This document shows positions 4,745-56,338 of a stretch of 56,617 nucleotides of DNA, piece by piece (position 1 is the first letter of the stretch; every line of letters begins with the position of its first letter). Both the position numbers and the translations under genes were made by a program. The notes below the pieces were generated by a model. It made no database searches, was not told the DNA's origin, and saw nothing but the letters and a program-made list of their open reading frames with translations. Origin of the DNA: a virus; IMG/VR virus record IMGVR_UViG_3300039171_000040, positions 16,427 through 73,043 of that record. One strand, written 5' to 3'.

Positions 4745-5338
4745 CTAAAAAACCTTTTCTGGAAATGATGCAGGACTGCCATTTGGCATCATTTCTGTTA
4801 CTATCCACGTTACTTGTGGTAATGCTATGGCTTCTATATTTTCCATTAAATGGTTCATCACAGGATATTTATACTCAGTTGTAATGCTTGCTAAAATTGC
4901 ATCCTGAAATGCTGCAATTTTAGAAGGCGCATCATTAACTACAGATATAACAGACACACCACCATGTAAAGGTAATCCGTTTATTACAAGAACGGTTCCC
5001 CAGTAGTTAGCAAGTGCTGTTGCAAAATCAATAATAGAATTACTAAAAGTTCTCATAAAGGATTCTATTATTATTGGTTGTTGTGCGCCATGCACAGAAC
5101 CAAGCACAACCCCCTCTAATGAATATTCTTCATACGATGATGCAAAAGAAGATGGATAATCACCCACTGGTTGTGTGATACTTCCATCGTCATTTGTTTT
5201 TGAAACAAACTTGTTTTTGTCTGGCGTAAACTCATCAACAACATCATCCCAATCATCAGGCTTTTCCGGTTGAACCAGTGATATGTAGTTGTTCATGAAT
5301 GATTCAAAACTATATGAGAATGTATTTGGAGTAAGCAT
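4745..5338 (-). CDS. Conserved baseplate-operon protein, unknown function
   Basis: 197 aa, not recognised as a T4 protein. Its ATG overlaps the gp5 stop codon (TAATG) and it abuts gp25, so it is a translationally coupled member of the hub/wedge operon and is probably a virion or baseplate assembly protein. An acidic, low-complexity N-terminal 60 residues precede an alpha/beta-looking body (IIDFATALANYWGTVL, MNHLMENIEAIALPQVTWIV). No signal peptide or membrane span. A minus-strand TATAAATA lies within the gene at 4866-4873. Confidence 0.6.
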   Translation of the reverse strand: MLTPNTFSYSFESFMNNYISLVQPEKPDDWDDVVDEFTPDKNKFVSKTNDDGSITQPVGDYPSSFASSYEEYSLEGVVLGSVHGAQQPIIIESFMRTFSNSIIDFATALANYWGTVLVINGLPLHGGVSVISVVNDAPSKIAAFQDAILASITTEYKYPVMNHLMENIEAIALPQVTWIVTEMMPNGSPASFPEKVF

Positions 5339-54466: not shown

Positions 54467-54652
54467 TTACCCTGCCTCTATTTCTTTTATTAGATTTTGT
54501 GCCATCGAAAGATAAATCTCTCTCTCATAAGGTAACATGTTTTCAAGATCATCAAGTGTGAAATTGTTAGAAACTTTAAAGTTGTGGTTTGGATGAAATA
54601 ATACACTAAAGTTGTTTGTATAATAGCTTTCAACCGACTCATGACAAACCAT
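54467..54652 (-). CDS. Small ORF after gp26, probable -1 frameshift extension
   Basis: 61 codons from ATG 54652, overlapping the gp26 stop as TAATG, with no good Shine-Dalgarno within 15 bases. 'DDLENMLPYEREIYLSMAQN' resembles the second-frame extension of tail assembly chaperones. It is probably made as a gp26 fusion by slippage on the T7 run at 54658-54664, with or without independent re-initiation. Ends two bases before the tape measure gene. Confidence 0.65.
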   Translation of the reverse strand: MVCHESVESYYTNNFSVLFHPNHNFKVSNNFTLDDLENMLPYEREIYLSMAQNLIKEIEAG

Positions 54653-54664
54653 TAGATAAAAAAA
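54652..54664 (-). promoter_or_regulatory. Putative programmed -1 frameshift site
   Basis: Minus strand reads GAT TTT TTT ATC TAA TGG. A U7 run just before the stop allows both tRNA-Phe to slip by one, giving TAT CTA ATG and opening into the next ORF. Confidence 0.6.
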
Positions 54665-55377
54665 TCATTGATGCCTTTAAACGTAATGGTTTCTTTCTTA
54701 TTGTCCAGCTTTGGAAGTGTAACGTCCACCTTGTGTTCGATACGCGGGATGCTTGAAAAGAATTTATTAATTACTTTCATGTTTAACATATCAATATCAT
54801 CAACAAACTCAATCATCTCTTCATCGCTAATATCTTCACGGTTGTAAACATTTTCTGCATCAAACACACACACGATACATTTTGAAATAAGTTCAATGTC
54901 GTCATTGGTGTCTTTCATTTCACGAATAATCTTCAAAGTTGGATATCTAAGCTTAACACCAAGCTGTGATTCTTTATCAAGAATTATTTTATCATCAACT
55001 TTTTCTTCAACCACAACTTTGATATCATCAATGTTGATTTCGATATTAACAAAATCTGTTTTTTCAATACCCTTTTCATCGGTGTACTTGTAGCTAAATC
55101 TTGGCTTGATAATCTCACCAACAGACTTGGCACGAATTCTAAGGAATATATCTTCCATGTCAAACGAACTAAGATTGTCGATATCAATGTCATCAAGAAT
55201 ACAATTATGCAAAATCTGCATTACAGCTTCAAGGATTCGACTTGTGTTCTTTTCTTCTTGTTTAGCCAGCAACAGAATCTTTTGTTCCGCGTTTGTGAAC
55301 GGGCGATAAGAAACTTTTTTGTTCAGACCCACCAAGTGGTGTGTGTATTTCGGGTGTTTAATCTTAGGTAATGCCAT
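54652..55377 (-). CDS. 26: Baseplate hub/tail chaperone-like protein gp26
   Basis: 241 aa (T4 gp26 is 208). The signature N-terminus 'MALPKIKHPKYTHHLVGLNK' and 'VSYRPFTNAEQKILLLAKQE' is the T4 gp26 family, as are 'LSSFDMEDIFLRIRAKSVGE' and 'GVKLRYPTLKIIREM'. In T4 it is assigned to hub assembly; by position before the tape measure, family members resemble tail assembly chaperones. Ends at a slippery T7 run. Confidence 0.85.
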   Translation of the reverse strand: MALPKIKHPKYTHHLVGLNKKVSYRPFTNAEQKILLLAKQEEKNTSRILEAVMQILHNCILDDIDIDNLSSFDMEDIFLRIRAKSVGEIIKPRFSYKYTDEKGIEKTDFVNIEINIDDIKVVVEEKVDDKIILDKESQLGVKLRYPTLKIIREMKDTNDDIELISKCIVCVFDAENVYNREDISDEEMIEFVDDIDMLNMKVINKFFSSIPRIEHKVDVTLPKLDNKKETITFKGINDFFI

Positions 55378-55384
55378 CTTACTT

Positions 55385-56338
55385 TTATCCTAATTTGTCC
55401 AGTGTTCCATCAATCAAACCAATTAATTGAGCTTTTTGGTCGCTGCTAATTACATTGTTTAAATCGAGGTTGGCTTTAATGCCATTTAATAGTGATGCTG
55501 ATTTGTTCGTAGATTGACCGGTTGTGTTCTTCACAACATCATCAACCATATTGTATATATCTACAGCTTCACCCTCTAGACTTGCACCACCTAAAAATTG
55601 AGTCTCTACAAAGTCTATGCCGCGCTGTACCGCTGGATTAGAAAGTATAGGGGTAGTGAATGGGCCTAGCGGTGTCTGTGCAAGAGAACCCACACCAGAC
55701 GGTTGTGTGACCTCAGCAGTTGTCCACTTTCTGTAAGCAAAAGTAACACTGATTTTGTGATACTCGTCATTGCTTTCATTGGAAAGCTGCATCGTGCTTA
55801 TGTCAACAGGGAAAGCGTCTTTAATAATAACCTTATGTGTTACTTGATCCAGTTCGTTTAGTTGTTGAATTTCAATACTAGGCGACACATACGTATTAAA
55901 GTAAGAAATTTCATGTGTGTTAGGATCAATGATCATATTCATCCACTTGTCAATAATATTCTTTTCCAAAAAATCTCTTGACACAACAAATGTAAATTCA
56001 ACAGGTGTGTATGTGATGTCATGAGCCGCACTGAAATAATCAGAATTGTACTTGGTTTCTGACACAGCCAAAGCCTTTGATGGAAATTGTGCTGATTCAC
56101 ACATGATATCCAATCCACGCACAATTTCTGTACCAGACCCCAGATAACTCTTAACCAAATTGATACCAACAGAACCGATTAAAGGTTGAAGAAAATTACC
56201 AGCCTCATCATCATCAGACTTTTCAGAATTCAAACTTTGTTGTAGAATTTCAGGCAAGCTTATGATAACATTAAACCTATTGGTTCGAGCTAAACCATGC
56301 TTTGTTATATGTTTTATTGATTCGTTTAGCGAAGCCAT
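55385..56338 (-). CDS. 54: Baseplate tail-tube initiator gp54
   Basis: 317 aa (T4 gp54 is 320). A tube-protein fold shared with gp19 is visible: 'RTNRFNVIISLPEIL', 'IMCESAQFPSKALAVSETKY', 'ITYTPVEFTFVVSRDFLEKN' and 'VDISTMQLSNESNDEYHKIS'. gp54 rings sit on gp48 and start tube polymerisation. Placement beside gp26 and gp29 and a late promoter agree. Confidence 0.82.
   Translation of the reverse strand: MASLNESIKHITKHGLARTNRFNVIISLPEILQQSLNSEKSDDDEAGNFLQPLIGSVGINLVKSYLGSGTEIVRGLDIMCESAQFPSKALAVSETKYNSDYFSAAHDITYTPVEFTFVVSRDFLEKNIIDKWMNMIIDPNTHEISYFNTYVSPSIEIQQLNELDQVTHKVIIKDAFPVDISTMQLSNESNDEYHKISVTFAYRKWTTAEVTQPSGVGSLAQTPLGPFTTPILSNPAVQRGIDFVETQFLGGASLEGEAVDIYNMVDDVVKNTTGQSTNKSASLLNGIKANLDLNNVISSDQKAQLIGLIDGTLDKLG

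Follow-up and report, generated by a model that had tools for sequence, protein, structure and literature searches.

A candidate programmed -1 frameshift at the gp26-gp51 junction of a phage tail locus

Gene order and reading frames at the gp26 locus

How is the small open reading frame (ORF) between gp26 and the tape measure gene translated? The window, i.e. the whole 56.6-kb stretch of DNA analysed here out of a 73-kb virus record, carries on its minus strand a tail tube or tube-initiator gene, followed by gp26, a 61-codon ORF and a tape measure gene, and an earlier note, made from the sequence alone, had proposed that a -1 frameshift joins gp26 to the ORF. From upstream to downstream, the features of this locus are:

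55385 to 56338, minus strand: tail tube or tube-initiator gene, upstream of gp26, order as in relatives (phrog_3629, 4.2e-73; phrog_45, 1.9e-38)
54652 to 55377, minus strand: gp26 homologue of 241 aa read in the zero frame, putative short tail assembly chaperone (PF12322 T4_baseplate, 1.3e-48; phrog_150, 1.2e-52; single copy in the 73-kb record)
54674 to 54678, minus strand: weak internal Shine-Dalgarno (SD)-like sequence AAAGG that may stimulate slippage, 9 nt ahead of the heptamer (anti-SD energy -3.2 kcal/mol)
54658 to 54664, minus strand: in-frame slippery heptamer T TTT TTT, separated from the stop by one codon (read from the sequence; T TTT TTN in 273 of 277 relatives)
54467 to 54664, minus strand: -1 frame, open for 65 codons from the slip site and then closed by a stop, predicted to give a 303-aa gp26-gp51 fusion
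54652 to 54654, minus strand: TAA that ends gp26 in the zero frame and overlaps with the ATG of the second ORF (TAATG; read from the sequence)
54467 to 54652, minus strand: gp51 homologue, 61 aa if begun at its own ATG, no SD ahead (phrog_634, 4.8e-15; 63% identity to Pseudomonas phage pf16)
52486 to 54465, minus strand: tape measure protein gene, presumed client of the chaperone (phrog_58, 2e-13; phrog_1272, 1.3e-6; phrog_5493 also matched)

The gp26 protein scores 166 bits against PF12322 (cut-off 24.5). It is the only gp26 match in the 73-kb record, itself a fragment, and each of the 643 phage records that the window protein retrieved likewise holds one gp26 place. The 3′ end of the gene reads ...GGC ATC AAT GAT TTT TTT ATC TAA, and the run of seven T that the earlier note had singled out as a slippery site indeed lies in frame as T TTT TTT, following the pattern X XXY YYZ. 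A -1 slip at this heptamer reads TTT TTT TAT CTA ATG GTT TGT CAT, or F F Y L M V C H, and enters the 61-codon ORF via TAT CTA ATG exactly as had been claimed, the frame continuing as FFYLMVCHES... through to the end of gp51. The ORF was further said to lack a ribosome binding site of its own and to lie directly before the tape measure gene: no SD sequence is present 4–10 nt before its ATG (best anti-SD energy, +0.6 kcal/mol), and the phrog_58 match identifies the gene next downstream. The ORF had been treated as anonymous, which does not hold, as it is gp51, carrying the phrog_634 label 'baseplate hub assembly catalyst'. The observation is thereby confirmed, and its interpretation as a frameshift finds support in the sequence comparisons described below.

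We consider it very probable that gp26 and the following ORF constitute a single tail assembly chaperone gene that is decoded in two ways via a -1 frameshift. Most ribosomes would stop at the TAA codon and release the short form, while a fraction would slip back by one base on U UUU UUU, with both Phe tRNAs re-pairing, pass the stop region and produce the long form, which bears the gp51 domain at its C-terminus. If the products act like gpG and gpGT of phage lambda, the short form would wrap around the tape measure protein encoded by the next gene, the long form would use its gp51 tail to bring in the tail tube or hub, and neither form would stay in the virion. What the sequences themselves display is the site, its frame and conservation, the many relatives with a start-less gp51 and the fused gp51 gene of T4; that slippage takes place in the window phage, its rate, a part played by the SD-like element and the action of the products as chaperones are inferred.

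Conservation of the slip site and the route to gp51

The earlier note had suggested checking whether relatives keep a slippery site at this point. We gathered relatives by similarity to gp26 rather than by the slip site or gp51, except for a few isolates found via gp51, and obtained 277 loci with a readable 3′ end from isolates and IMG/VR contigs. An in-frame T TTT TTN near the gp26 end, with gp51 next in the -1 frame, is present in 273 of them; the remaining four are T4, two Ackermannviridae-like phages (EP75 and Vibrio phage D533) and one contig, L113. Clustering at 50% identity leaves the site in 28 of 31 clusters, the exceptions being T4 and two Ackermannviridae-like phages. Accordingly, the arrangement that would speak against a frameshift, with both ORFs kept and the slippery run absent, is not found outside two lineages. 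In contig L113 (IMGVR_UViG_3300011253_000081), gp26 stops in mid-gene despite 99% identity to HTVC008M, most likely an assembly error.

Codon usage at the site is equally uniform. Across the 117 representatives at 90% identity, the Phe pair invariably follows a codon ending in T (117/117; 70.7 expected) and invariably opens with TTT (117/117; 83.3 expected), counts that are conditioned on carriers of the site, with only three representatives lacking it. As a control, Phe-Phe pairs elsewhere in these genes show T TTT TTN in 5 of 118 cases versus 117 of 117 at the site (Fisher p 8e-62); at the 50% identity level, the heptamer occurs in 1 of 26 control pairs. Significance figures of this kind ignore the relatedness of the sequences, and the pattern holds at 50% clustering. 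A T7 run by itself is not significant (the AT-rich window contains 32 on both strands, versus 74 expected); its frame, position and conservation are. In all 116 complete representatives the -1 extension spans 58–70 codons, and none is short.

Upstream of the heptamer, the family is strongly enriched for an SD-like sequence that ends ~7–9 nt before it, with a mean anti-SD energy of ~-6 kcal/mol versus -0.7 at control places in gp26—energies that assume a standard 16S tail in the hosts. The element sits on an invariant Gly codon, and the codon before this Gly is GAG rather than GAA in 50 of 60 cases, compared to 653 of 2570. Protein sequence alone therefore does not explain the element, and synonymous choice contributes. 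The window's own copy is a weak one. Downstream of the heptamer, 40-nt segments starting 0–6 nt past it have a mean z of ~-1.0, with 21–24% falling below -2 (elsewhere, ~0 to -0.5), which makes a hairpin likely for some lineages (P-SSM2, S-PM2, DLP6). We considered a stem-loop stimulator common to the whole family and rejected it, the signal being enriched in some lineages only; RNA structure downstream of the window's heptamer is no better than that of shuffled sequence (z 0.24). The combination is reminiscent of Escherichia coli dnaX, which has the tandem slip heptamer A AAA AAG, an internal SD and a strong hairpin. The gp26 sites share with dnaX the tandem heptamer and an internal SD at similar distance, whereas their downstream hairpin is clear in some lineages only.

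Might gp51 instead be made as a separate protein of 61 aa, by ribosomes that terminate at the gp26 stop and re-initiate at the overlapping ATG, the T run being merely two Phe codons? The TAATG overlap of the window recurs in several relatives (KVP40, nt-1, S-CRM01), and an ATG lies within eight codons of the site in 35 of the 117 representatives, albeit only in these. Against this stand the 62 of 117 representatives that have no ATG, GTG or TTG among the first 15 codons read in the -1 frame, even though the stretch is conserved in that frame: across these 62, entropy at the three codon positions is 1.06, 0.80 and 1.44 bits, with the third varying most, the -1 frame is stopped in none and the zero frame stops in all. 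Frameshifting is therefore the simplest way for such phages to make gp51. Moreover, in ten 90% clusters the zero frame extends eight codons beyond the heptamer, such that the conserved start of gp51 falls inside the overlap. The window's ATG has no SD and is an ordinary residue within the conserved post-slip stretch (consensus, FFRIxLxHxSLxNYYxxNFALMQHHKYSLTELENMIPWEREIY), and translational coupling would leave both the codon bias at the heptamer and the fused form kept by T4 unexplained. As an account of how gp51 is expressed, we thus regard coupling as very unlikely; as a side route to free gp51 in the window phage, re-initiation at TAATG is possible. Overlap of gp26 and gp51 in two frames was seen in the loci L143, L158, L172-L186 and kin, some of which also carry a GCCTCT...AGAGGC hairpin just downstream.

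Still less probable is slippage of RNA polymerase, which might add or drop a U on the T7 run and thereby fuse the frames, with an identical protein outcome. A run of seven T would suit such an event, but 84 of the 117 representatives have only six T followed by C, and T6 is short for polymerase slippage; besides, the conserved bases suit re-pairing of tandem tRNAs on X XXY YYZ, and there is an SD-like element upstream. That the T run is a chance feature and gp26 and gp51 are ordinary genes acting separately is scarcely credible: T7 runs are common in so AT-rich a window and Tevenvirinae have separate genes and lack the site, yet the 'separate gp51' of Tevenvirinae is itself the long fusion, and 28 clusters at 50% identity conserve the site, a level of conservation far from that of the control Phe-Phe pairs.

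Parallels with known tail assembly chaperones

The slip site of phage lambda is G GGA AAG, and that of the window phage, U UUU UUU, differs from it, as does the zero-frame protein, which is longer than lambda's. The two loci are alike in having a short ORF, a -1 slip near its 3′ end that gives a long form, and the tape measure gene immediately downstream (Levin 1993 and Xu, Hendrix and Duda 2004, as summarised in PMC5009743). The lambda G/GT parallel drawn in the earlier note accordingly stands as regards arrangement. The AlphaFold2 model of gp26 is confident (pLDDT 94). It has no match in the PDB at E 0.001, and sequence searches for relatives of solved structure returned none. Compared to models of viral proteins, it retrieved its own family and, weakly, a siphophage tail assembly chaperone (probability 0.98, E 0.17), and no lambda gpG match surfaced in family scans, the one level at which gpG was compared. 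As the fold of gp26 matches no solved structure and siphophage chaperones only weakly, the functional parallel rests on arrangement and decoding, and common descent with lambda-type chaperones is no more than possible.

For T4-like phages, gp26 and gp51 have already been identified as tail assembly chaperone genes (Vladimirov, Gautam and Davidson 2022, Virology 566:9-15, as cited in PMC10885494 and PMC12846349). According to these citing papers, there are T4-like phages with one short gene and one long fusion gene in place of frameshifting (PMC10885494), and T4-like chaperone genes are credited with poly-T -1 signals. Common to T4-like phages and the window are the PF12322 family and the pairing of a short form with a long form that has a gp51 tail; they differ in that T4 and close kin encode the two forms in separate genes, whereas the window phage has a single gene with a slip site. 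Judging from its citations, the gp26/gp51 frameshift arrangement was thus reported in essence by Vladimirov et al. in 2022, the window member being new and unannotated. The earlier note had held that slippage is not established for T4 gp26; this agrees with the lack of a slip site there, but overlooks that gp26 and gp51 had, according to the same citations, been recognised as T4-like tail assembly chaperones. The papers describing PRFect and GeneTack make no mention of gp26. Points that may be new are how widely the site is conserved, as judged with codon controls, along with the SD-like element, the gp51 frames that lack a start and the degenerate sites of Ackermannviridae-like phages (see below).

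The gp51 module in T4 and other lineages

T4 gp51 (249 aa) consists of a complete PF12322 domain (residues 1-201, 3.9e-52) and the gp51 tail, and T4 gp26 (208 aa) of the PF12322 domain alone. A profile built from the -1 extensions of the relatives aligns to residues 200-243 of T4 gp51 (hhalign E 8e-5) and yields no match to T4 gp26. T4 therefore makes the short and the long form from two genes, and both gp26 and gp51 are likewise carried by Aeromonas phage 31 and RB43. On sequence grounds, most of the sampled superfamily, the window phage included, would obtain the two forms from one gene, and lineages would differ in whether frameshifting or a pair of genes supplies the same products. The two-gene arrangement was not seen in the window phage: its 73-kb record, a fragment, yielded no separate full-length gp51 with its own gp26-like domain. 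In PMC3004832, T4 gp51 is given as a hub assembly chaperone that is required yet absent from the particle, which fits the role proposed for the long form. In T4 (locus L022), an in-frame internal product, gp26′ (gene 26′, positions 4803-5090), is annotated and represents a further form of the domain.

What would this mean for gp51 elsewhere? Our data indicate that in very many myoviruses, marine and environmental, the small 'gp51' forms the tail of a long gp26. Cyanophage gp51 proteins were noted as odd in 2010 for being only ~20% the length of other gp51 proteins (PMC3037559), and another odd annotation of that year is that gp51 was judged absent in phage Aeh1. If gp51 is a gp26 tail, both the short cyanophage gp51 and the 'absent' gp51 of Aeh1 would be accounted for. 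In Aeromonas phage phiAS5, Cronobacter phage S13 and Vibrio phage vB_VmeM-32, the heptamer is followed by a gp51 frame that has no ATG at its conserved start and is not annotated as gp51 in the public records; a start-less frame is probably the reason why gp51 was judged missing in Aeh1-type phages. The unannotated frames lie at positions 2208-2400 (L284, phiAS5), 2200-2400 (L287, S13) and 2175-2360 (L029, vB_VmeM-32). Described in a 2010 review as essential and of unknown function, gp51 gains a testable role as part of a long-form tail chaperone.

A wider scenario, in which our confidence is evenly divided, would extend this view across most of the T4 superfamily: gp51 would be the C-terminus of a frameshifted gp26, often start-less, with the slip driven by U UUU UUN and a conserved, dnaX-like internal SD-like stimulator ~9 nt upstream; T4 and close kin would have lost the site upon duplication into gp26 and gp51, and Ackermannviridae-like phages would keep the extension on a degenerate site. 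In the latter group (EP75, JA15, 2050H1, VAP7 and D533), as well as in Pseudomonas phage Cygsa01, the -1 extension is kept after N NTT TTC or N NTT TTT, an imperfect tandem heptamer. Similar poly-T motifs have been described at the chaperone locus of phage Adele and the Vandenendeviridae/Andersonviridae (PMC12846349), which resembles the window in that the -1 frame is open in every genome, the motif lies at the end of the short gene and the region is mis-annotated as a separate gene. Unlike the window, they belong to other phage families and carry GTTTTT rather than T TTT TTN, a motif nearer to the Ackermannviridae-like sites of the present set. The degenerate sites at the gp26 end read ATT TTC, GTT TTC, CTT TTC or GTT TTT (loci L030, L027, L285, L286 and L288 among the Ackermannviridae-like phages; L290, Cygsa01), and in EP75 and 2050H1 the conserved part of gp51 is entered with no ATG ahead of it.
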